35,825 nucleotides of DNA from positions 1-35,825 of the forward strand of contig JAFTQM010000050.1 in NCBI GenBank assembly GCA_017462755.1, given 5' to 3'. Source of the stretch: Lachnospiraceae bacterium (GTDB lineage: Bacteria; Bacillota; Clostridia; Lachnospirales; Lachnospiraceae). This document shows, piece by piece, positions 5,317-17,493 of this stretch (positions within the stretch are counted from its first letter, which is position 1; each line of letters opens with the position of its first letter). The notes under the pieces are model-generated. The model was not told where the DNA came from, searched no databases, and saw only the letters and a program-made list of their open reading frames with translations. A program made the position numbers and the translations under genes.

Positions 5317-7470
5317 TTATGCGCGAATATCAAAACTGTAACGCTTCATGGAGCCAGACGAGCGTGCGCAGACCATAAAATCCTGCAGCAGGTCGGATTG
5401 CTCGCTGCGCTGCTCTACGCGTGCCTGCAGGGAATAGCCCTTGTTTTCCAATGCCCGCTGGAGCAGAGGAAGATTTTCGGAGGTGATATCTGCGCTGTCG
5501 CTGTTGGACAGATAGAAGGTTGCCCGCAGCTCACGCTCTAAAAGATTTAAATGTACATCCAGTGGTCCAAGCTGCTCCATATCGAGGTGGAGCAGGACGC
5601 GGGTACCGTCTTCCTCGCTGCTGCCATGGCGGGAACGCGGGTAGACATAAAGCTCGGCATGAGCAGTCTGCCCGGTCAGCTTTAATGGCAGCTGAATGTA
5701 AGGATAGAGCTGATTGATGGTTTTGATAAAATCCATATTGTCACGGATGGCAGCAGCCGTATCCTGAAAGGCATGCTCTGTACCGGTGTGTATATTTAAT
5801 TTCTCCAAAAGAGACAAATCGAAATCCAGTGCTTTGTAGTACAAATCCAGCGCATCCCCCTTGGTCAGATGCTCCGGACGCAGGGTAAAGCGGGACAGCA
5901 GTGCCTGCTGCAGCATTTCCTGATAAGCGCGCGAGGAGGTATAGGAGGAATCGGAGGAGGAACGCTCCGGCAAATCTGCGAGCAGACGAAGCAGTTCACG
6001 AGTATCCAATTCACCGTTTTCTAATTTATCAATAATGGTAGACGGAAGTCTGCCGCGAAAATGATTTGCAAGCTCAACACGTTCGCTGCGGCTTAAATAG
6101 CTGTTTAAATGCAGGTTGGCAGTGGAAAGCCACGCATATTGACTGAGAATCGCGTAGACCTCCGGGGTCTGCAAAATCGCCGGAAGCTGTGAAATCGCGG
6201 CGGAAATCGGAAGCTCGGACAATTTTACCGGGTCCGGTAGGTTTTCAATATATTCCTGTGGATTCTCGGACGCAGCCTGCCCGGTCAGTGTGGATAAAAT
6301 ATCCGCGGCCTCTGCAGAAGTCATGGTAGTAAGTCTGCTGAACATTTCTGCGGCATCCGGTACCGACATGCCGGTATAATTTGCCAAGGTACCGGCAGCA
6401 GCGGATGGGGACATGGTAAGCATTGCGCTAAACAATGCGGTGGCCTCCGGTGTGGACAGATTGGTCAGTGCTGCAAGAACGGCGATGGCGTTGTTGCCCA
6501 TGGTCGGAGCGGCAGCTTCCGTAGAAAGCAGCATTGCGGTGTCAGCGGTTTGCAAAAGGAGCTGGCTGACCTCGGACAGCGAAGCCGAACCGTTTACAAT
6601 ACCGGCAGCCTGAGCATCGGAAATACCAAATTGCTCCAAGCTGTCCAACAGGGTCAGAGTACCGTCAGCATCCAGCAAATCAAACGCAGCCAAAGAGGCA
6701 TCGATGTTTGGCTGGAAGGTATCGGTACGCGCCAATGGGTCGGGAAGCTTTAGCAGCTGTAGTAATTGTTGATTTAAAGCACGCATGGCGGCAGTATTGC
6801 CTTGCTCCGTAGCAGCGGTAAGAGAGTCTATCAGCTCGGTAACCAGCGTTTGAGCCTGATTGGCAATACGATGCTCATAATTGAGATAGCGATCCATTTG
6901 TGCAGTATTGACGTCGGTTAGCGGAATATGATGCTTCATCAGCAGGGTCAGAGCCTGAAAGGAAACTCCGCGAAAGGTCGCAGATTGGCGTAACAGGTTC
7001 TGAATACTGTTTTTATCAATGGATAGACCTTGGTTTAACAATTCCCGAACCGCATTGACGTTGCGTTCGGTTTTCGGAAGATTTGCAGCCTCAAGTGCTT
7101 TGTCGATGGTCCACTCCTGTGAAAGCTGTTGCGGATTGGCGAGAACACGAAGCATGACATTGGAAGGCGTAGCTTCGCTGACCTGAAAGGTTGCAGTATC
7201 GCCGATGGAAAGCGTGGCGGTGGAATCTAAAGTGCCGGACAGCATACGGCTGTTTGCTAATTGGATTTTTACATAGTTATTCCGTAGGTCGATGACCTCG
7301 CCCTTAATAATTTGCCCCTTGGAAAAGCTCATCCCCTGTGCATGGGAATATCCCGGAGGAAGAGAGGTGCGGGAGGTCTGGGAGCTGGTCGAAGCAGTCC
7401 CGGTGCGGGTATAATTGTTTTGTAAGCCGGTTTGTGGTTTTCCGGTAACCCGTTGTTCAAATAAGCCCAT
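5317..7470 (-). CDS. FliK-like protein (candidate flagellar hook-length control protein)
   Basis: A 717-aa soluble protein. Residues about 1–110 are Gln/Ser/Thr-rich, followed by a small beta region (GEVIDLRNNYVKIQLANSRML…). The middle (about 115–560) is predicted mostly helical and Ala/Leu-rich, with repeats such as ALFSAMLTMSPSAAAGTL and EMFSRLTTMTSAEAADIL. The last 120 residues have the pattern of the FliK C-terminal domain: a beta stretch (AELYVYPRS), then LHLDMEQLGPLDVHLNLLERELRATFYL, then LPLLQRALENKGYSLQARV. It may belong to a DUF recorded mainly in Lachnospiraceae, which I could not check. GGAGG 7–11 nt before the ATG supports the start. A near-perfect sigma-28 promoter lies upstream, agreeing with a flagellar role. 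No other structural flagellar gene is in the window. GH3 follows 72 nt downstream on the same strand. Confidence 0.65.
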   Translation of the reverse strand: MGLFEQRVTGKPQTGLQNNYTRTGTASTSSQTSRTSLPPGYSHAQGMSFSKGQIIKGEVIDLRNNYVKIQLANSRMLSGTLDSTATLSIGDTATFQVSEATPSNVMLRVLANPQQLSQEWTIDKALEAANLPKTERNVNAVRELLNQGLSIDKNSIQNLLRQSATFRGVSFQALTLLMKHHIPLTDVNTAQMDRYLNYEHRIANQAQTLVTELIDSLTAATEQGNTAAMRALNQQLLQLLKLPDPLARTDTFQPNIDASLAAFDLLDADGTLTLLDSLEQFGISDAQAAGIVNGSASLSEVSQLLLQTADTAMLLSTEAAAPTMGNNAIAVLAALTNLSTPEATALFSAMLTMSPSAAAGTLANYTGMSVPDAAEMFSRLTTMTSAEAADILSTLTGQAASENPQEYIENLPDPVKLSELPISAAISQLPAILQTPEVYAILSQYAWLSTANLHLNSYLSRSERVELANHFRGRLPSTIIDKLENGELDTRELLRLLADLPERSSSDSSYTSSRAYQEMLQQALLSRFTLRPEHLTKGDALDLYYKALDFDLSLLEKLNIHTGTEHAFQDTAAAIRDNMDFIKTINQLYPYIQLPLKLTGQTAHAELYVYPRSRHGSSEEDGTRVLLHLDMEQLGPLDVHLNLLERELRATFYLSNSDSADITSENLPLLQRALENKGYSLQARVEQRSEQSDLLQDFMVCARSSGSMKRYSFDIRA

Positions 7471-7617: not shown

Positions 7618-8757
7618 TTATTCGGCGAGCAGGACATCAAAATCCGGCAGCTCGTCTAAGGTAATGACATATTCGTGATTGTAGATGGTGTCTAATTCTT
7701 CTTTGGTATTTTCCTTGAGGTACGATAAGGTCCAGGTCATAAACCAAGTCCAGTGAACCTTGCCGGAAATCATTTCGTCCGGCATCGGAATGTGGTCGCA
7801 TTCGTGCAACGGAATCGGCATACCCTCTTCGGCAAACGAAACGGAACGCTTGTACATCGAGGAACGGGTACCGGTTGCATAGCTGTCAGCGCCAAGAATA
7901 TCGACATATTCCGCGCCCGGATACCAGCCGTCCTTTAAGCCGCTGCTATAAGCAAGTACCCAAATGAGGTTGTTCAGTCCGTGGTAATTGGTATAGCGGT
8001 CGTACATCAGCTGCCAGAGCTTAATGAAGTTTTCGCTTCCGCCCTTGCCCCACCAGAACCATTCTCCGTCGAATTCGTGGAATGGCTTCCAAAGTACTAC
8101 GACATTTGCATCCTGCAGTTCTTTTAAGTAGCCTGCAGCCTCATCCAAATCAGCGAGCAGAGCATTGTGCAAATCCGTACCCTCAGTCAATGCTTCGGAT
8201 AAGTCGATGGTACCCTTGCTAGATTCGTAGCCGACACCATCCGGAGGGGTACCCCAGTGCCAGCTGAGACAAACCAGACCATGCATGGAATTGGACCAGA
8301 AGATGGAGCGGTCAACAACACCCTCAAAATCATCGTTGATAAAATCCAATCCGCGGATAGCAGGATATTTTCCGGTTACTTTTTTCAAATAATTCATTTC
8401 GCTCGAAGCCGCCGCAGCACCACAGGATTCCTCCTGACCGGAAATAATGCCCTGTCCGGAAACGCTGCAGAGATAATCGTAAACCAGCTGTGCCTTTGCA
8501 GTCGCATTTGGATTGGAAAGGTCACGAATGTTCTGAATTTCGATTTCAGGAGCGGTAGATATCTCTTCACCACCGACCGAAGGGGTTGCACCGGTACCCT
8601 CGCCGTTAGCCGCCGGAGTAGGAGTAGCATCGGTGGTTGGTGCTGCCGATACGGTTGGTGTAGGTGTAGTTGTGTTTTCGTTTTCCTTGCCACAGCCGGT
8701 AAGAGTGCCGGTCAGCATCGTGGCTGCCAAAAGCAAAGAAAGCAGTTTTTTCTTCAT
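7618..8757 (-). CDS. Glycoside hydrolase family 26 endo-beta-mannanase, lipoprotein
   Basis: A 379-aa surface lipoprotein. The start MKKKLLSLL is chosen because GGAGG (8764–8770) sits 7 nt upstream; a longer reading frame begins six codons earlier. The signal peptide ends in the lipobox LTGC (Cys22), followed by a Thr/Pro/Ala/Gly linker to about residue 75. The catalytic domain has the GH26 landmarks GLVCLSWHW, the acid/base Glu228 in WKPFHEFDGEWFWWG, and the nucleophile Glu319 in PIPLHECDHIP. The WFWWG stretch and the LSWHW strand match mannanase members of the family. The domain has normal length and no separate binding module. It probably cuts mannan or galactomannan outside the cell. A consensus sigma-A promoter drives it, divergent from the pse operon. 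Confidence 0.93.
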   Translation of the reverse strand: MKKKLLSLLLAATMLTGTLTGCGKENENTTTPTPTVSAAPTTDATPTPAANGEGTGATPSVGGEEISTAPEIEIQNIRDLSNPNATAKAQLVYDYLCSVSGQGIISGQEESCGAAAASSEMNYLKKVTGKYPAIRGLDFINDDFEGVVDRSIFWSNSMHGLVCLSWHWGTPPDGVGYESSKGTIDLSEALTEGTDLHNALLADLDEAAGYLKELQDANVVVLWKPFHEFDGEWFWWGKGGSENFIKLWQLMYDRYTNYHGLNNLIWVLAYSSGLKDGWYPGAEYVDILGADSYATGTRSSMYKRSVSFAEEGMPIPLHECDHIPMPDEMISGKVHWTWFMTWTLSYLKENTKEELDTIYNHEYVITLDELPDFDVLLAE

Positions 8758-8807
8758 AGGTAGTCCTCCATACAAAAAGGGAAGTTTCGTCTTTTTTCGT
8801 TACTTCT

Positions 8808-8891: not shown

Positions 8892-8919
8892 TAAAGAAAA
8901 GTCAGAAAAATACCGATAT
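8892..8919 (+). promoter_or_regulatory. Candidate sigma-28 (SigD-type) promoter of the pse operon
   Basis: TAAA at 8892–8895 and CCGATAT at 8913–8919, 17 nt apart (16 nt if the -10 is counted as ACCGATAT). The spacing equals that of the candidate at 662–689 and is one longer than the consensus. It lies about 30 nt before the first gene of the operon. No good sigma-A alternative is seen in the same stretch. Confidence 0.6.
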
Positions 8920-8956: not shown

Positions 8957-9985
8957 ATGATAATGATTCGGACAGATGCAAATAATCAGATAGCAATGGG
9001 GCACCTCATGCGCTGTATGTCCATCGGCCTGCAGCTAAGCGCATTGGGCGAGGAGGTGCTTTTTGTATTGTCTGAGCCGGATGCCGTAGAGCAGGTAAAA
9101 CAAAAAGGGTTTGCCTGTGTGTGCCTGCACAATCACTATAACGAAAAGGAGCAGGAGACAGAGGCTCTTTTGCACTTCGTAAAAGAAAAGCAGTGTGAGC
9201 TGTTATTTCTGGATTCCTATGAGGTAACACTGCCGTATATGAAGGCATTGAAGGCGCAGACCAGACTAGCTTATCTGGATGATTTGAATTTGTTTTGTTA
9301 TCCGGCAGATTTGATTGTCAATTATACCTTTGGAACGACGCGAGAGCTTTACGCAGAGCGGGGCTATGAGGAAACACAGGAGTTTTTGCTGGGAAGTCGT
9401 TATGTGCCGCTCCGACCGGAATTTGCAGCAGGCAGAATCGCGATTCGACCAAAGGTGCAGGATATTCTCGTAACGACCGGAGGCACAGACGAGCAGGATA
9501 TATTGTGCGGAATGGCAGAATGCCTAAAGAAATATCCTTTGGTACAAAAGCATTTGGTCGCAGGGCGGTTTTATCATAAGCCGGAGGCTTTGAAAGCATT
9601 GGAGCAGGAGGATGTGACGGTACATGTATACCATAATGTATCGGACATGGCAGGGCTGATGAGACGATGTGACCTTGCGGTTTCTGCGGGTGGAACAACG
9701 TTAGCTGAATTGGCAGCGTGCGGAATTCCAACGGTATGCTTTTCGGTAGCGGAAAATCAGGTTGCAGGAACACAAGCGTATGCAGCGGCAGGCATGCTGC
9801 GATATGCAGGGGATGTCAGAAACGGCCGCTTACAGCTTTTAGATAGAATAAGTAGTGAAGTGGAACGGCTGTATGGTCAGCCGACGCAAAGAGAGCAGTT
9901 AGGAGAGACTGCGTATTCTCAGGTGGATGGAAAGGGCGCAGAACGAATCGCCCGGAGATTAGTAACGCTTCAGAATGGAGGATAG
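8957..9985 (+). CDS. pseG: PseG, UDP-2,4-diacetamido-2,4,6-trideoxy-beta-L-altropyranose hydrolase
   Basis: A 342-aa protein of the GT-B-like PseG family, which removes UDP from the altrose precursor of pseudaminic acid. The N-terminal motif IRTDANNQIAMGHLMRCMSI carries the conserved Gly-His (His16) used by PseG as catalytic residue. The C-terminal nucleotide-binding half has ILVTTGGTDEQD and MRRCDLAVSAGGTTLAELAACGIPTV, the GT-B signature. GGAG at 8943–8946, 10 nt before ATG, sets the start. It is the first gene of a tight operon; its TAG stop lies one base before the pseI start. It is longer than the Campylobacter enzyme (about 274 aa) but similar to clostridial forms. The upstream enzymes PseB and PseC are not in the window. 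Confidence 0.88.
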   Translation: MIMIRTDANNQIAMGHLMRCMSIGLQLSALGEEVLFVLSEPDAVEQVKQKGFACVCLHNHYNEKEQETEALLHFVKEKQCELLFLDSYEVTLPYMKALKAQTRLAYLDDLNLFCYPADLIVNYTFGTTRELYAERGYEETQEFLLGSRYVPLRPEFAAGRIAIRPKVQDILVTTGGTDEQDILCGMAECLKKYPLVQKHLVAGRFYHKPEALKALEQEDVTVHVYHNVSDMAGLMRRCDLAVSAGGTTLAELAACGIPTVCFSVAENQVAGTQAYAAAGMLRYAGDVRNGRLQLLDRISSEVERLYGQPTQREQLGETAYSQVDGKGAERIARRLVTLQNGG

Positions 9986-9986
9986 G

Positions 9987-11036
9987 ATGAATAAAAAAAT
10001 ATACATAGGCAATCATGAGATTTCAGAACATGCGCCGACGTACATTGTGGCAGAGATGTCGGGAAATCATAATATGGAGCTGAGCCGTGCCAAGGCAATA
10101 ATAAAGGCGGCGGCAGAGGCCGGAGCAGATGCGATAAAAATACAGACCTATACCCCGGATACGATTACGATTGATTGCAAGGCAGATTGCTTCCGGGTGC
10201 AGGGAAAGCTCTGGGAAGGAATGACGCTGTACGAGCTGTATCAGACGGCGTATACTCCGTGGGAGTGGCAGAGCGAGCTGGCACAGTATGCAAAAGAACT
10301 CGGCATCGACTTTTTTTCCTCGCCGTTTGATTTGACGGCTGTCGATTTTTTGGAGGAGCTTGCGGTACCGGCATACAAAATCGCCTCGTATGAGATTAAT
10401 GATATTCCGTTGATTCGGAAGGCGGCACGCACAGGAAAGCCGATTATTATATCCACAGGAATTGCATATTTGGAGGACATTGAGCTGGCGTTGCGTACCT
10501 GTAAGGAGGAAGGAAACGACCAGGTTGTTTTGTTGAAATGTGTGTCTGCGTATCCGTCGCCGTTTGAGCAGATGAATTTGAAGACAATTCCGAATATGCG
10601 AGGAACCTTTGATTGTCTGTCCGGTCTTTCTGACCATACCCTTGGAAGCGAGACGGCCATAGCCGGTATCGCGCTGGGAGCAAAGATGATTGAAAAGCAT
10701 ATGACGCTCCGGAGAAGTGACGGAGGTCCGGATGCTGCATTTTCCATGGAGCCGGAGGAATTTGCACAAATGGTAACACAGATTCGCAATGTGGAAAAAG
10801 CATTGGGAAGTGCGACCTATGAACTGACTGAGATGCAGAAAAAGAAGCGTTCGGGTTCGCGTTCACTTTTTGTAGTAGAGGATGTGAAGGCGGGTGAGGT
10901 CTTTACGGAGAAAAATCTTCGCTCCATCCGTCCGGGTGTCGGAATGCATACAAAGCATTATGAAGAGCTTCTTGGAAAAAAGGCAAGATGTGATGTTTCT
11001 AAGGGTACTCCGATGGATTGGAAATATGTAGAATAA
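9987..11036 (+). CDS. pseI: PseI, pseudaminic acid synthase
   Basis: A 349-aa NeuB-family enzyme that condenses the altrose derivative with phosphoenolpyruvate to form pseudaminic acid. The start at 9987 follows GGAGGATAGG; an in-frame ATG at 9975 overlaps pseG and has no ribosome site. The TIM barrel carries YIVAEMSGNHN, DAIKIQTYTPDTITID, TPWEWQ, FFSSPFDLTAVDFLE, PAYKIASYEINDIPLI and KPIIISTGIA, which are PseI-type rather than sialic- or legionaminic-type signatures. LSDHTLG and GAKMIEKHMTL follow. The C-terminal 60 residues form the SAF (antifreeze-like) domain (RSLFVVEDVKAGEVFTEKNL … RPGVGM). It is translationally close to pseG and pseF. Confidence 0.93.
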   Translation: MNKKIYIGNHEISEHAPTYIVAEMSGNHNMELSRAKAIIKAAAEAGADAIKIQTYTPDTITIDCKADCFRVQGKLWEGMTLYELYQTAYTPWEWQSELAQYAKELGIDFFSSPFDLTAVDFLEELAVPAYKIASYEINDIPLIRKAARTGKPIIISTGIAYLEDIELALRTCKEEGNDQVVLLKCVSAYPSPFEQMNLKTIPNMRGTFDCLSGLSDHTLGSETAIAGIALGAKMIEKHMTLRRSDGGPDAAFSMEPEEFAQMVTQIRNVEKALGSATYELTEMQKKKRSGSRSLFVVEDVKAGEVFTEKNLRSIRPGVGMHTKHYEELLGKKARCDVSKGTPMDWKYVE

Positions 11037-11046
11037 GAGGTAGGAA

Positions 11047-11751
11047 ATGAGTACGAAGAAAATTGCGATTATTACAGCCAGAGGCGGTAGTAAGCGTATT
11101 CCGAGAAAAAATATAAAGGATTTTTGTGGAAAGCCGATTATTGCTTATTCGATTGAAGCAGCGCTGCAAAGCGGAATTTTTGAGGAGGTTATGGTATCCA
11201 CAGACGATGAGGAGATTGCCGAGATTGCGAAAAGCTATGGCGCGGCGGTGCCGTTTATGCGCAGTGAGAGAACGTCCGGAGATTATGCGACTACAGCAGA
11301 TGTGATTATGGAGGTGCTGGAGGAATACCGGAAAAGAGGAGTGGTATTCGAATACGCCTGCTGTATTTATCCTACGGCGCCATTTGTTACGCCAAAGAAG
11401 CTGCAGGATGCGATGGCGTTGATGGAGCAGCACAAGCCGATGAAGGTAATTCCGGTGGTACCGTTTTCGTTTCCGCCGCAGAGATGCTTCGTGATTGAAA
11501 ATGAAATCAATATGCGATATCGTTACCCGGAATATGCGACGATGCGCTCGCAGGATTTGGAAAAGCATTATCATGATGCCGGTCAGTTTTATGTGTATTA
11601 TCTGGAAAAATATTTGGAGAAGCAGGGAAGAACGATGGATGACATCATGCCGATTGTTGTTTCTGAGCTGGAGGTTCAGGATATTGACACGGAGGACGAC
11701 TGGAAGATTGCAGAGTTAAAATATAAATTGATGCATGAAGGTAAAATGTAA
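11047..11751 (+). CDS. pseF: PseF, pseudaminic acid cytidylyltransferase
   Basis: A 234-aa CMP-nonulosonate synthetase. ITARGGSKRIPRKNIKDFCGKPIIAYSI is the CTP-binding N-terminal signature of the NeuA/PseF family, and the RIPRKNIKDF wording is that of PseF. VSTDDEEIAEIAKSYGA, the CCIYPTAPFVTP strand and DAGQFYVY are also present. It activates pseudaminic acid as CMP-Pse, the donor for flagellin or surface glycan transferases. GAGGTAGGAA precedes the ATG. The gene lies 10 nt after pseI and 25 nt before the ATP-grasp gene, so pseG, pseI and pseF form one transcript covering the last three steps of CMP-Pse synthesis. Confidence 0.93.
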   Translation: MSTKKIAIITARGGSKRIPRKNIKDFCGKPIIAYSIEAALQSGIFEEVMVSTDDEEIAEIAKSYGAAVPFMRSERTSGDYATTADVIMEVLEEYRKRGVVFEYACCIYPTAPFVTPKKLQDAMALMEQHKPMKVIPVVPFSFPPQRCFVIENEINMRYRYPEYATMRSQDLEKHYHDAGQFYVYYLEKYLEKQGRTMDDIMPIVVSELEVQDIDTEDDWKIAELKYKLMHEGKM

Positions 11752-11776: not shown

Positions 11777-12961
11777 ATGACAGGAGTAGTGATTGGTGCC
11801 GGCAGAGATGCCATTCATACAATAGAGAAGGCGAAGGAGCAGGGAATTTATGTGGTTGCGCTGGACGGCAATCCGGAAGCCGCAGGAATGGCACATGCCG
11901 ACCGGGCAGTTACGGTAGATATTTCAAAGCAGGAAAAGGTAGATGAGGTAATAGAGCAGGTAAGACCGGATTTTGTGATTCCGGTGCCGATTGGCCGCTA
12001 TCTTCTGACGACCGGTTATGTAAACGAGCGGTATCGGCTGAAGGGAGCGGGCTATCAGGCAACGGAGCTGAGTGTGGACAAGTATCTGTTTCATAAACGG
12101 CTGCAGGAGAAAAAGCTGCGTCCGATAGAGTTTTTCTTAATCAATCAGGACACGGATAAGCAGCAGGTGTCGATTTCTTATCCGGCGATTTTGAAGCCGC
12201 GTTTTGGTTCCGGCAGCAGGGATGTGTTTTGTATTACCTGCGAGCAGGAATTGCAGGAGGCTTGCGAGTTTGCGATAAACTCCGGCGAGGATTTTGTGCT
12301 GGAGCAGATGGTACAGGGAACCGAGTATGGTCTGGACGGAGCGGTCATGAACGGAAAGCTTCAGATTACGCTGCTGCGTCAAAAGGTGATTACTCCATTG
12401 CCGGCACGTCAGGCAGTGGCAAGCATTTCGATGGCAGATACTGCGGAGCATGAGGAATTGTATCAGCGAGTTTATCGCCATATGCAAGAGGTAATTGAGG
12501 TGTTGGGTTACAATGACTGTCTGGTCAATGCGGACATTATTTTGTCGGGAGAGCAGGTCTTTGTAATTGAAATCGCACCAAGACCATCCGGACATTATTT
12601 GCATGATGTTTTTGTGCCGCAGACGACGGGAGTCGATTTGGCAGAGGAATACATTCGGTTTTTATCCGGCAAGGAGTATGGCTTTGTGCCGAAGGAAATC
12701 AAATGCATGCGGATTCAGTTTTTCAAATTTGAGAATGTCTCCATTACGAAGGTACCGCAGGAAGCGGCTTTGCGTGCGAGCGAAGACTGCCGCTTGGTGC
12801 GTTGGGAGTGCAATATCAAAGAGGGAGACTGCATGGAGCCGGTGGTAAATGGGCATTCGATTATGGGACGCGGATTTTTTATCGTACAGGGCGAGAACGA
12901 GCAGGATTTGGAAGCACAGTGCGATTGGGTACTTCGTCAGTTTGGGGTGGAAGCATTATGA
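11777..12961 (+). CDS. ATP-grasp ligase of the pse operon
   Basis: A 394-aa ATP-grasp enzyme. The start at 11777 is set by GGAGG 6–10 nt upstream; the reading frame is open 42 nt further but overlaps pseF. Residues 1–100 form a Rossmann-like pre-ATP-grasp domain (VVIGAGRDAIHTIEKAKEQG, ALDGNP). The ATP-grasp fold follows with PAILKPRFGSGSRDVF (phosphate loop), VLEQMVQGTEYGLDGAVMNGK and the metal-binding EIAPRPSGHYLHDV. Such enzymes join a carboxylate to an amine, thiol or other nucleophile through an acylphosphate. The position between pseF and a GNAT gene, with a 4-bp ATGA overlap to the latter, suggests modification of the nonulosonic acid or its precursor, for instance by an amino acid. That is inference; a biotin-carboxylase-like or purine role is not excluded. 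Confidence 0.8.
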   Translation: MTGVVIGAGRDAIHTIEKAKEQGIYVVALDGNPEAAGMAHADRAVTVDISKQEKVDEVIEQVRPDFVIPVPIGRYLLTTGYVNERYRLKGAGYQATELSVDKYLFHKRLQEKKLRPIEFFLINQDTDKQQVSISYPAILKPRFGSGSRDVFCITCEQELQEACEFAINSGEDFVLEQMVQGTEYGLDGAVMNGKLQITLLRQKVITPLPARQAVASISMADTAEHEELYQRVYRHMQEVIEVLGYNDCLVNADIILSGEQVFVIEIAPRPSGHYLHDVFVPQTTGVDLAEEYIRFLSGKEYGFVPKEIKCMRIQFFKFENVSITKVPQEAALRASEDCRLVRWECNIKEGDCMEPVVNGHSIMGRGFFIVQGENEQDLEAQCDWVLRQFGVEAL

Positions 12962-13482
12962 GAATCAATACAGAACGTCTGGTGCTGAAGCCACTGGGAA
13001 TGGACCATTTTTTGACGGCGCATAAATATTTGGCAGATGCAGAGAATACCTTGTACATGAAATATTTGCCGCACGAGGACGAAGCGGAAACCATTCGTTT
13101 TCTGACGGCCTGTGAAGCGGAATGGCAAAAGGTGCGACCTGCGTACTATGAATTTGCAGTGTTTTTAGGAGAAACGCATATCGGTGGTGTTGCACTATAC
13201 AATGATACGGAAGAACGGGAAACAGGAGAGTTGGTCTGGATTATTGACAAAAACTACTGGGGCAAGGGATATGCAGCAGAGGCGGCGAAAAAGCTGGTCG
13301 ATTTTGGCGCAGAGCAGCTGGGGCTGAAGCGAATCATTGCCCGGTGTGACAGCAACAACCGGATGTCAAAACGCATCATGGAAAAATTGGGAATGAAGCA
13401 TTGCAATACGATTCCGGGCAGAAAAAATCGCGGTTCGGATGAGATTCATGAGGAATATGAATATGAACTATTATTTTCGTAA
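12958..13482 (+). CDS. GNAT N-acetyltransferase, possible PseH equivalent
   Basis: A 174-aa acetyltransferase of the RimJ/RimL-like GNAT type: INTERLVLKPL start, GGVALYNDTEERETGELVWIIDKNYWGKGYAAEAAKKLVDF containing the acetyl-CoA loop (W-G-K-G-Y-A), and RIIARCDSNNRMSKRIMEKLGM. The ATG at 12958 overlaps the stop of the ATP-grasp gene (ATGA), and GGGGTGG in that gene provides the ribosome site, so the two are translationally coupled. PseH, the acetylase of the pseudaminic pathway, is also a GNAT and is otherwise missing here, so this gene may fill that step or acetylate a modified sugar. Its similarity to RimJ-like proteins leaves protein or small-amine acetylation open. Confidence 0.8.
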   Translation: MRINTERLVLKPLGMDHFLTAHKYLADAENTLYMKYLPHEDEAETIRFLTACEAEWQKVRPAYYEFAVFLGETHIGGVALYNDTEERETGELVWIIDKNYWGKGYAAEAAKKLVDFGAEQLGLKRIIARCDSNNRMSKRIMEKLGMKHCNTIPGRKNRGSDEIHEEYEYELLFS

Positions 13483-15208
13483 AGCATTTGCGGCGGTACT
13501 GCTCGGAGTGTTGCTTGTGCTTACCGGATACGGAAGCGGAAGGTATGCGCAGAATTTGCAGCTTTTTGCTGCCGAAAAGGAATTTTTGTTTTCGCTTACC
13601 GCAGAGGAGGAGGCTTATTTGCAGAGTCTGCGGGGGGAGACACTTACGCTTGCAGTGGCAGAGCAGTCGGCCTATCAGCAGGATGTCACAGGGAAGCTGC
13701 CTTACGGAATGGCGGTACCGTTACTGGAGTTTTTGGAATACGAGCTTTCGCTTGAGGTAGAGGTGTATGCAGGCACATGGCAGGAATGCAGGGAAGCGTT
13801 AAGCTCCGGTGAGGCAGACCTGTTGTTTGGAGTGCCGGTGCTTTCTAAGGAGCTTGCGTCCTTTGAAGTGGAGGGACAGGCGGGCTGGTGCAGTGCGCCG
13901 TTTTATGAGGAGCAGATGTATCTGGTTACCCGGAAAGGAATCGATGCCATGCAGCTGTATCGTGAGCCGGAGAGCAGGCTTGGAATCGTAGAGGCAGCAC
14001 TTTGGAGCGAGCAGCTGCAGCCATGGCTGGTATCGGATTGGGAGCAGATTCCGTTTGAGGATACCGAAGCAATGCTGTCGGCATTGCTCCGAGGTGAGAT
14101 TTTGGCGGCGGCGTTACCGGAAAGCGAGCTGTTTTTGTTGTTTGCTGAGGAAGCGTACACGGTAACAGAACCATTGCTGCCACATACGACTGGGATAGCC
14201 GTGGGTGCAATCGCACCGGAGCTTGAGAGCTTGATGAAACTGATTGACCGCTATATGGCGCAGACGGAGGAAGGAGATGCGCTGCAGGAGGCAGTGGCAG
14301 ATGCCAAAATCCGGTTGTGGACACAGGCGTTTCAGACGCAAAATCAGGAGCTGCTGGCTTATGTCAGGGAGCGGTATGCGACTCTTACCTACGCATCCAT
14401 GAGCCGGGGCAGCGTTCCGATGTTTTGGAAGCGTGATGGTGCGACATATGGGCTATTGCCGGAGCTGATGAATGTCTGGGCAGAACTGTCGGGGATTCCG
14501 GCAGAGTATGTGGACCGCTTGGATGATGAGGAAGCGCTCTCCCTACTGGAAGAGGAGGAGCTGCTGGTGTTGGCAGGCTTGACGCAGAGCGGAGAGGAAC
14601 GGGAGAATATTTGTTTTTCGAAGGCTCTGGGAATGGGCAGCTTAGTAGCCGTGCTTTCTGAAACAGAGACCAAACGCATGGAAGAAGCGCTCCGAACCGG
14701 CAGCAGCGTCAAAGAAGAGATTGCATATTGCTATTGGGGAACGCAGGAGGATATCTTTCCGTTGCTTTCCGGAACGGTTTTTGACGGACATGCGGTTGTA
14801 TTCGGTAGTGAAGCAGCGTTGTTTGATGCATTTTCCGAAGGAACGGTTGGCGGGATGTTAATTAGGGAAGGTGTATATGAGCAGCAGTGGAACGAAATGC
14901 AGCGTCTTGAGGAAATTGCTTATGTGATACCGGAACGACTGGCATTCTGTGCTTCTGGTGAAGAGTTAAACCTTTTGTTTGAAAAGCTGCTGTACTGCTA
15001 TGAAATTACGCATCCGCAGGCGTGGGAGCGTTGGCAGGCGGCAGGTAAAGCAGAGCTTTTAGCGCAGACGCAAGCAAGCGCAGGAAAGCAGATTCGGCTG
15101 CTGCAGAGAGGGCTGATATGCGGTGCGGCAGGCGTGGCAGCATTGTTGTTGGGGCTGCTTTGGGCTGCCGGTAGTAAGAAAGAGCAAAAAGTGAAAGAAA
15201 AAACTTGA
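13463..15208 (+). CDS. Membrane-anchored receptor with two solute-binding (SBP_bac_3-like) lobes and no output domain
   Basis: About 581 aa. The start at 13463 is preferred because GAGG (13450–13453) lies 9 nt upstream; other in-frame ATGs are at 13439, 13448 and 13457. It overlaps the GNAT gene by 20 nt. An N-terminal hydrophobic segment (residues about 8–24) is followed by two tandem domains with features of family-3 periplasmic binding proteins: about 45–265 (LTLAVAEQSAYQ … GEADLLFGVPVLSKE) and about 290–540 (PMFWKRDGATYGLLPELMNVWAELSGI … ENICFSKALGMG). A second transmembrane helix (about 553–573, LICGAAGVAALLLGLLWAAG) and a short Lys-rich tail end the protein. The layout resembles the sensor half of BvgS-like kinases or GGDEF proteins, but no kinase, GGDEF, HAMP or chemoreceptor part follows. 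Partner and ligand are unknown. Confidence 0.7.
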   Translation: MNYYFRKAFAAVLLGVLLVLTGYGSGRYAQNLQLFAAEKEFLFSLTAEEEAYLQSLRGETLTLAVAEQSAYQQDVTGKLPYGMAVPLLEFLEYELSLEVEVYAGTWQECREALSSGEADLLFGVPVLSKELASFEVEGQAGWCSAPFYEEQMYLVTRKGIDAMQLYREPESRLGIVEAALWSEQLQPWLVSDWEQIPFEDTEAMLSALLRGEILAAALPESELFLLFAEEAYTVTEPLLPHTTGIAVGAIAPELESLMKLIDRYMAQTEEGDALQEAVADAKIRLWTQAFQTQNQELLAYVRERYATLTYASMSRGSVPMFWKRDGATYGLLPELMNVWAELSGIPAEYVDRLDDEEALSLLEEEELLVLAGLTQSGEERENICFSKALGMGSLVAVLSETETKRMEEALRTGSSVKEEIAYCYWGTQEDIFPLLSGTVFDGHAVVFGSEAALFDAFSEGTVGGMLIREGVYEQQWNEMQRLEEIAYVIPERLAFCASGEELNLLFEKLLYCYEITHPQAWERWQAAGKAELLAQTQASAGKQIRLLQRGLICGAAGVAALLLGLLWAAGSKKEQKVKEKT

Positions 15209-15563: not shown

Positions 15564-16145
15564 ATGAGAATCGGAAGCGGATATGATGTACACAGACTGG
15601 TAGAGGGACGGGATTTGATTCTTGGGGGAGTGAAGATACCGTTTGAAAAGGGATTGTTGGGGCATTCGGATGCGGATGTATTGACCCATGCGATTATGGA
15701 TGCGCTGCTTGGAGCAGCGGCACTCGGAGATATTGGGAGACATTTTCCGGACAATGATGAGAGATACCGCGGAGCGGACAGTCTGAAGCTGTTGGCACAT
15801 GTAGGTGAGCTGTTGCAGCAGGAGCATTATCTGGTGGGCAATATAGATGCGACCATTGTGGCACAGCGGCCGAAGTTAGCGCCGTATCTGGCACAGATGG
15901 AGGAAAACATTGCCGGAGTGCTTGGAATCGAAAAAAATCAGATAAATATTAAAGCAACGACGGAGGAGCATCTTGGCTTTACCGGTGCGGGCGAGGGAAT
16001 GTCGGCACAGGCGGTAGCACTGCTCCAGTCCGCAGAGGATTTTATGGATGCAGGAAAAGCAGGCATGGTTTATGCATATGATGGTGCAGCAGCCTCCGGA
16101 TGTTGTGCGGCAGGCTGTAGCGGTTGCTCTGCGAAGCAGCAGTAG
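15564..16145 (+). CDS. ispF: IspF, 2-C-methyl-D-erythritol 2,4-cyclodiphosphate synthase, with a Cys-rich tail
   Basis: A 193-aa enzyme of the MEP isoprenoid pathway, converting CDP-ME 2-phosphate to MEcPP with loss of [14 protein letters not shown] and [12 protein letters not shown] give the zinc ligands Asp8, His10 and His42; [23 protein letters not shown] and [17 protein letters not shown] complete the family pattern. AGGAGGGG sets the start. The usual IspF ends near residue 157. Here about 35 extra residues follow ([18 protein letters not shown], then an Ala/Gly/Ser stretch with Cys180, Cys181, Cys185 and Cys188). The tail function is unknown. It sits at the head of the ispF–cysE–mrnC–rlmB–sigH block. 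Confidence 0.95.
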
Positions 16146-16911: not shown

Positions 16912-17493
16912 ATGGAACAGAATACAACCCTTATGGGTTTGGTGCGCCAGACCTTTGAACTGCCGGAACAGGACATTCGTACCTATTCTCCGCTGACACT
17001 GGCGTATATCGGTGATGCAATTTACGATTTAATTATTCGCACGATGCTGGTGGAAAAGGGAAACAGTCAGGTAAATAAGCTGCATCAGCGTGCCAGTGCC
17101 ATGGTAAAGGCGGTGGCGCAGAAGGAAATCATGTTAGTGATTGAGCCGTTATTGACCGAGGAGGAGCGTGGATATTATAAGCGTGGACGAAATGCCAAAT
17201 CGTATACCACCGCCAAAAACGCTTCGATAGGGGAATATCGGGTGGCGACCGGCTTTGAAGCATTGCTGGGCTTTTTGTATCTGACCGACCGGATGGAGCG
17301 GTTGATGGAGCTGGTAAAGCTTGGAGTAGAGCGGCTGCAGGAGCTGCCGGCGAGTGCGATGAATCATGCGAAGCTGGGTACGAAGGCGAAAGCCGGAAAG
17401 CTACAGACGCATCCGCAGGCGAAAGCGGAAGCGAAAAAAGATACGGATGTAATGGAAGCAGAAACTACAGCGGAATCGTGCACGGCGCCGTAA
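16912..17493 (+). CDS. mrnC: Mini-ribonuclease III (MrnC)
   Basis: A 193-aa RNase III-like domain without the double-stranded-RNA-binding part. In Bacillus subtilis this family matures 23S rRNA. LTLAYIGDAIYDLIIRTMLVE corresponds to the catalytic signature, with the acidic residues supplied by GDAIYD and, later, by FEALLGFLYL. RGRNAKSYTTAKNASIGEYRVATGFEALLGFLYL is typical. A Lys/Ala/Glu-rich tail from about residue 150 has no counterpart in short family members. GGAGG lies 8–12 nt before the ATG. In many Firmicutes cysS lies between cysE and mrnC; here it is absent. Confidence 0.93.
   Translation: MEQNTTLMGLVRQTFELPEQDIRTYSPLTLAYIGDAIYDLIIRTMLVEKGNSQVNKLHQRASAMVKAVAQKEIMLVIEPLLTEEERGYYKRGRNAKSYTTAKNASIGEYRVATGFEALLGFLYLTDRMERLMELVKLGVERLQELPASAMNHAKLGTKAKAGKLQTHPQAKAEAKKDTDVMEAETTAESCTAP

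Follow-up and report, generated by a model that had tools for sequence, protein, structure and literature searches.

Gene organization of the pseudaminic acid locus

The window analysed here, which is the whole stretch of 35,825 nucleotides of contig JAFTQM010000050.1 from a Lachnospiraceae bacterium, contains five adjoining genes on the + strand, pseG-pseI-pseF-ATP-grasp-GNAT, with spacings of -11, 10, 25 and -4 bases, and judging from this spacing they appear to form one transcript. The first three encode the UDP-sugar hydrolase PseG (8957..9985; TIGR03590, 182.8 bits with a cut-off of 153.55), the pseudaminic acid (Pse) synthase PseI with its NeuB and SAF domains (9975..11036; TIGR03586, 500.6 with a cut-off of 340.25; PF03102 and PF08666) and the CMP-pseudaminic acid synthetase PseF (11047..11751; TIGR03584, 297.6 with a cut-off of 205.7), so that all three passed the NCBIfam equivalog cut-offs. 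The fourth gene (11777..12961) encodes a putative ATP-grasp carboxylate-amine ligase, which was assigned to a Pse-linked clade by its PF02655 and PF13535 matches, conserved residues, gene neighbourhoods and tree, and the fifth (12958..13482) encodes a GNAT protein of the RimJ/RimL-like type with 174 aa (PF13302, 100.9 bits). Counted from its ATG at 11777, the ligase ORF encodes 394 aa, and the alternative in-frame ATG at 11735 would run into pseF. The initial annotation had placed the ATP-grasp gene after pseF and had it overlap the GNAT gene by ATGA, and the ORF coordinates confirm both, with the bases at 12958-12961 common to the two ORFs.

PseB and PseC of the window genome (G000; genomes are numbered with G and loci of other records with L) are located on a separate contig, G000:C77, where they reach 534.9 bits with TIGR03589 and 523 bits with TIGR03588, both above the cut-off. 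Beside PseB on this contig there are the end of a flagellin gene (PF00700), a glycosyltransferase-like gene and a Maf-type protein (PF01973, 129.7 bits), the last of which scores under the cut-off of the NF050051 model.

A SigD/FliA-like promoter motif, TAAA-N17-CCGATAT, is predicted at 8892..8919 on the + strand, ending 37 bases 5' of the pseG start, and resembles the SigD/FliA consensus. We give it modest weight because it was noticed by eye first and scanned afterwards. The scan returned two matches in the window against 0.25 expected, a number reached by 3 of 100 shuffles, and the second match lies inside a gene (17007-17031, - strand). Elsewhere, the motif was found 5' of flagellin and 5' of PseI in L066, 5' of flagellin in L067 and 5' of pseF in L121, and the scan of L068 and L233 gave none.

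Several other genes flank these five. Upstream of the Pse operon there is a gene for a FliK-like hook-length protein (5317-7470, - strand; PF02120, 39.3 bits), and a GH26 protein gene (7618-8775, - strand) lies between the two. Downstream, a 589-aa protein with a weak SBP_bac_3 match (13439-15208, + strand; PF00497, 29.1 bits) is encoded by an ORF which shares 44 bases with the 3' end of the GNAT gene and may be part of the Pse operon. The window also encodes an IspF-like protein (15564-16145, + strand), in which PF02542 covers residues 1-154 of 193 and the C-terminal tail is rich in cysteine.

Family and conserved residues of the ATP-grasp ligase

The window ligase exceeds the Pfam gathering scores of PF02655 (43.3 against 23.2), PF13535 (42 against 27) and, narrowly, PF02786 (20.7 against 19.8). 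Among the solved relatives of the clade profile, the best ones were 4dim (123.3 bits), the L-amino acid ligase BL00235 (66.7 bits, limited to profile positions 82-293) and carbamoyl-phosphate synthase (61.7 bits), and BacD reached 48.3 bits. BL00235, BacD and 4dim are ATP-grasp proteins like the window ligase, but the match covers the ATP-grasp core only and the window ligase is probably not a member of their groups.

A purine, vitamin or peptidoglycan enzyme was rejected as the identity of the ligase, because no such model listed reaches its cut-off. For the NCBIfam models (purine, carbamoyl-phosphate, D-Ala-D-Ala, cyanophycin and PylC), all scores among the matches listed (25 of 29) were below the cut-off, the best being 72.3 against 625.

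Six residues (K102, K140, E176, E183, D253 and E265) are invariant in all 13 rows of the clade alignment and in all 37 other clade rows, and by analogy they presumably have roles in handling ATP and Mg. Five others (R201, R211, H273, C345 and R365) are present in at least 36 of the 37 clade rows and are not conserved in distant Pse-linked ATP-grasps. In a tree built on 64 chosen rows, the nearest neighbours of the window ligase are those of L066 and L121 (96/86), then L068 (96/87) and L067 (93/68). The ligases of L069 and L070, which are located outside Pse loci, are sisters of this group, and the ATP-grasps counted near PseI belong to several lineages.

Association of the ligase clade with Pse genes

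Ligase homologues were found at E <= 1e-20 in 48 of 397 family genomes, and 13 genomes, including the window's own, make up the ligase clade at about 38% identity or more. All 13 contain PseI above its cut-off, against 84 of the 397 family genomes (hypergeometric 7.8e-10, kinship ignored), and in 11 of them PseI is within 10 kb of the ligase. Of the two exceptions, G042 has PseB and PseC rather than PseI close to the ligase, and in G162 ligase and PseI are on different contigs. The ligase match in the five other genomes of the same genus was 28 bits at best.

The wider survey covered 80 of 149 confirmed relatives, with loci from named records that were located by an alignment-based contig search. 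It turned out that 68 of the 80 loci have PseI, PseG, PseF or PseB within about 10 kb of the ligase (PseI in 59, PseG in 56, PseF in 54, 17 of these in long fused ORFs, and PseB in 21), and seven more have a PseC-like gene as the sole Pse gene. The loci without Pse genes are L069, L070, L074, L093 and L096, and the contigs of L074 and L096 measure 5 and 3 kb. Four of the 80 (L093, L099, L111 and L143) appear without a ligase ORF because a longer ORF overlapping it was retained in its place. The two surveys overlap, since L121, L139, L089 and L080 correspond to G192, G099, G305 and G042, and L113, L103, L141 and L123 to G211, G268, G105 and G217, respectively. ATP-grasp genes near nonulosonic acid (NulO) genes were already known from SfmE of Shewanella oneidensis, according to the available part of PMC3765264.

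The initial annotation had held that its reading would fall if the ATP-grasp protein belonged to a known purine, vitamin or peptidoglycan family with no recurrent link to nonulosonate genes. The searches gave the opposite picture, namely no such family membership in the models listed and a recurrence beside Pse genes in 13 of 13 clade genomes by PseI and in 68 of 80 relatives by PseI, PseG, PseF or PseB.

As a separate observation, the ligase relatives without Pse genes in L069, L070 and L074 have two shared other neighbours (clusters of 303 and 188 aa), and a TsaD-like gene sits between these in L069.

Distribution of the ligase and PseH

To describe the relation between ligase and PseH around PseI, two counts were made. 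The first covered 85 PseI places and mixes thresholds (rows at E <= 1e-12 and laxer rows); 17 places have an ATP-grasp homologue within 10 kb, and a PseH-like gene is found at one of these 17 and at 26 of the 68 others. For the second, 74 further PseI neighbourhoods were added and the ORFs were scored by the ligase profile and by a local PseH profile made from 12 ORFs of the scored set itself. A PseI ORF was kept in 82 loci, which divide into 29 with just the ligase, 28 with just PseH, one with both (L045, from G192) and 24 with neither (Fisher 1e-6, kinship ignored). Over the thresholds and distances tried, the Fisher values ranged from 1e-6 to 9e-4 with PseH at 25 bits or more, and from 0.006 to 0.15 with PseH at 50 bits or more. 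Thus, near PseI the ligase is mostly found where PseH is absent, a local near-exclusion which is weaker at strict thresholds.

In this count the window was scored as ligase only despite its own GNAT, and 5 of the 30 ligase loci near PseI depend on ATP-grasps below 50 bits. Three loci in which no PseI ORF was kept were left out, i.e. L153 (ligase, no PseH), L193 (PseH, no ligase) and L196 (neither). When the small unlabelled ORFs near PseI in the ligase loci were viewed by eye, no further GNAT was seen besides that of the window. The PseG ORFs of L183, L185 and L186 also match the local PseH profile (28-37 bits), which suggests that they are PseG~PseH fusions.

The exclusion of ligase and PseH is local only and fails genome-wide. 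We searched TIGR03585 (PseH, cut-off 93.1 bits) in 17, 80 and 8 genomes. In the window genome, whose assembly is 81.7% complete, the best match to it was 36.5 bits. A PseH-like match of 67-95 bits exists somewhere in 9 of the 13 clade genomes, and that of G268 is above the cut-off (94.8 bits) and 13.5 kb from PseI; in the four others (G000, G099, G222 and G142) the TIGR03585 search gave none above 38.4 bits. In the close relative G192 the ligase is followed by an adjoining PseH-like GNAT (78.5 bits), and in G162 the ligase is on one contig and a GNAT with 40.3 bits directly follows PseI on another. Eight clade genomes have their PseH-like hits outside the ligase neighbourhood, three of which were viewed (G105, G211 and G305). 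In G211 and G305 a WecE-type aminotransferase (599 and 643 bits) is about 1.8 kb from the PseH-like GNAT, and the gene order in G105 is alike, so this GNAT points to another sugar. PseH passed the cut-off in one of the eight genomes searched, that of L071, and the best PseH match in the genome of L066 is a partial one of 49.2 bits, some 440 kb off. The available part of PMC5109656 describes Pse islands in Geobacillus without a PseH orthologue.

The GNAT encoded in the window

The window GNAT has no match to TIGR03585 at E <= 1e-3 and scores 14.5 bits with the local PseH profile. Its homologues, with up to 54% identity, occur in 22 of 396 other family genomes, 9 of which have PseI, and none of these homologues is on a PseI contig (the assemblies are drafts, in which nearness is possible). 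On the other hand, it is 25% and 28% identical to the GNATs directly after PseI in L194 (G162) and L212 (G014), which were counted as PseH-like. The suggestion in the initial annotation that the GNAT acts as PseH is therefore disfavoured by the models and neighbourhoods and keeps some support from this likeness. The GNAT may be a recruited general acetyltransferase or passenger, an enzyme capping the acyl group, or a divergent PseH. A methyltransferase takes its position in L066 and L068.

Partner enzymes in related loci

Among the model loci, L067 has flagellin (identified by eye) and then PseB-PseC-PseI-PseF-ligase-PseG, with no other ORF of at least 100 aa kept between, and L066, from the complete chromosome of Anaerocolumna sp. 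MB42-C2, has flagellin (by eye) and later PseI-PseF-ligase-methyltransferase-SHMT-PseC-PseG-PseB; no GNAT was seen when these two Pse loci were viewed by eye. The order in L068 is ligase-methyltransferase-PseG. A class-III aminotransferase follows the ligase in L050, L052, L054 and L140. Many ligase loci belong to more extensive glycan clusters that also encode glycosyltransferases and an ABC transporter.

A PLP decarboxylase is present in the loci of 54 of the 80 relatives. In 17 of the 80, all from records named Butyrivibrio, it forms an ORF of about 640 aa with PseF, and the in-frame fusion of PseF to the decarboxylase was read in two of them (L048:5894-7822, - strand; L053:2902-4935, + strand). 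The decarboxylase profile matches FslC, the N-citrylornithine decarboxylase (159 bits), plant diaminopimelate decarboxylases (116 and 111 bits) and BtrK (102 bits). At E <= 1e-10, the decarboxylase is present in 4 of 11 genomes (G099, G042, G335 and that of L068) and missing from 7 (G000, G192, G222, G162 and those of L066, L067 and L140).

In L158, a locus with flagellin and Maf matches, the ORF between PseI and PseG (L158:9088-11073, + strand) is a fusion of a cytidylyltransferase (PF02348, 125.7 bits) with an ATP-grasp (PF13535, 44.2 bits). In L151, L160 and L161, a HAD-like hydrolase (by eye) is near a highly divergent ATP-grasp (34-39 bits) together with PseI and PseG, which makes another recurring Pse neighbourhood.

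Proposed role of the ligase and alternative explanations

The product of the operon may be a non-standard CMP-pseudaminic acid, probably destined for flagellin. In the reading we prefer, whose chances we put a little below even, the ligase stands in for PseH and couples the 4-amino group of the sugar to a carboxylic acid that is probably an amino acid. This reading is based on the observed gene order, protein families, Pse linkage, near-exclusion with PseH close to PseI and intact ATP-grasp residues. The loci L066 and L067, the WecE-type neighbours of the PseH-like GNATs in G211 and G305, the fusions in the Butyrivibrio records and in L158, and the relation of the decarboxylase to FslC and BtrK also favour it. 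Against it stand the PseH-like matches in 9 of the 13 clade genomes, the adjoining pair in G192, the GNAT after PseI in G162, the 24 of 82 loci that have neither gene, the incomplete window assembly, the weaker Fisher values at 50 bits, the five ligase loci below 50 bits, the window's own GNAT and the sisters L069 and L070. PseB and PseC, encoded on the other contig, would supply UDP-4-amino-4,6-dideoxy-L-AltNAc, and the ATP-grasp enzyme would activate the carboxylic acid as an acyl phosphate, replacing the acetyl-CoA-dependent step of PseH. The acyl group would then form an amide on the 4-amino group, which later becomes N7 of Pse; PseG would take off UDP, PseI would add the pyruvate unit, PseF would make the CMP donor, and a Maf-type flagellin glycosyltransferase would receive the CMP-sugar. 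The substrate and attachment site of the ligase, the order of the steps, the role of the GNAT and the flagellin target are those that we infer from the genes and their arrangement. PseH acylates the same amine as proposed here for the ligase, but the two proteins are unrelated, PseH being an acetyl-CoA-dependent GNAT and the ligase an ATP-grasp protein. Since relatives keep a PLP decarboxylase, a class-III aminotransferase and SHMT beside the ligase, an amino acid, or a compound made from one, is the most likely acid. The initial annotation, in which the ligase could attach an amino acid to the nonulosonate as an amide and the GNAT could act as PseH or as a second acylase, is partly supported overall.

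A broader form of this proposal, which we regard as tentative and somewhat doubtful, is that Lachnospiraceae-type bacteria have a second way to N-acylate nonulosonates, in which ATP-grasp ligases, recruited more than once, replace PseH and load amino acids onto the sugar nucleotide. Partner enzymes would then decarboxylate, transaminate, methylate or acetylate these amino acids, so that flagella and surface glycans would carry a family of aminoacyl pseudaminic acids not yet described. If replacement is true, the supposedly fixed acetylation by PseH would be swappable for an ATP-dependent ligation, some Pse loci without a recognised PseH would be explained, and new flagellar sugars would be predicted in bacteria of the gut and rumen, for example Butyrivibrio. 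NulOs on flagella matter for how bacteria move and how they meet the host, and the ligase would then be a tool for producing N7-modified pseudaminic acids.

The PseH activity could instead come from the downstream GNAT; the ligase would then attach an amino acid to another position of Pse (N5 or a hydroxyl), or to CMP-Pse, in an extra step. We consider this rather unlikely, and yet the ATGA overlap of the two genes, the ligase and PseH-like GNAT (78.5 bits) in succession in G192, and the PseF fusions, which hint at action near the CMP-sugar stage, all fit it; the 25% and 28% identity of the window GNAT to the GNATs after PseI in L194 and L212 does so as well and makes us slightly less confident in replacement. 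It is opposed by the absent TIGR03585 match and the 14.5 bits with the local PseH profile, by the closer homologues (up to 54%) found off the PseI contig in 22 genomes, and by L066 and L067, whose Pse loci have a ligase and no GNAT seen. It is quite improbable, in our view, that the target is another residue of a flagellar or surface glycan, or a protein, with the locus shared as both serve one glycan. The placement of the ligase inside short Pse operons (the window and L067), the partner enzyme fused to PseF and the near-exclusion with PseH close to PseI speak against such a target, although many ligase loci are the larger clusters with glycosyltransferases and an ABC transporter, the sisters in L069 and L070 lie outside Pse loci, and, in the available part of PMC5207246, an ATP-grasp gene is described in the type B flagellin locus of C. 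difficile, where the glycans contain GlcNAc and rhamnoses.

For the relatives with a decarboxylase, though not for the window, the replacement reading can be refined in the manner of BtrJ/BtrK. In butirosin biosynthesis, BtrJ and BtrK load an amino acid and decarboxylate the conjugate; here the side-chain carboxyl of an acidic amino acid would form the bond to the sugar, and decarboxylation of the attached amino acid would leave an omega-amino acyl group. The decarboxylase in 54 of 80 loci, 17 of them within the PseF ORF, and the profile matches to FslC (159 bits) and BtrK (102 bits) are consistent with this refinement, which we nevertheless judge unlikely: the plant diaminopimelate decarboxylases, whose substrate is a free amino acid, outscore BtrK with 116 and 111 bits, and 7 of 11 genomes, including G000, G192 and those of L066 and L067, have no decarboxylase at E <= 1e-10.

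Comparison with known systems

BtrJ/BtrK of butirosin and FslC of rhizoferrin share with the proposed route an amino acid that is loaded and a conjugate that is decarboxylated, but the carrier proposed here is a sugar nucleotide, and the BtrK/FslC-like decarboxylase belongs to the relatives only, with none in the window genome at E <= 1e-10.

A recurrent exchange of PseH and ATP-grasp was not found in the available parts of the literature searched on ATP-grasp with nonulosonates and on PseH acylation, and it is not proposed in the available parts of PMC3765264, PMC5207246, PMC11339370, PMC13317340 and PMC5109656. The word "ligase" is absent from the main text of PMC13317340. Leg5GluNMe7Ac of Clostridium botulinum, cited in the available part of PMC13317340, is a precedent for a flagellar NulO with an amino-acid substituent; it is a legionaminic acid, and its name places the substituent at N5.

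The closest described arrangement is SfmE (SO_3265) in the flagellin-modification operon sfmABCDE of S. oneidensis, where an ATP-grasp_4 protein and a NeuB-type synthase share an operon as in the window. The other genes of the sfm operon differ from those of the window, and SfmE is likened here by its description. In the available part of PMC3765264, a carboxylate-amine ligase or peptide-modifying activity was suggested for SfmE, and the authors inferred a protonatable amine in the Shewanella NulO and so do not demonstrate an amide at the second nitrogen. Deletion of sfmE kept filament and swimming and reduced spreading, as the same part of PMC3765264 describes.
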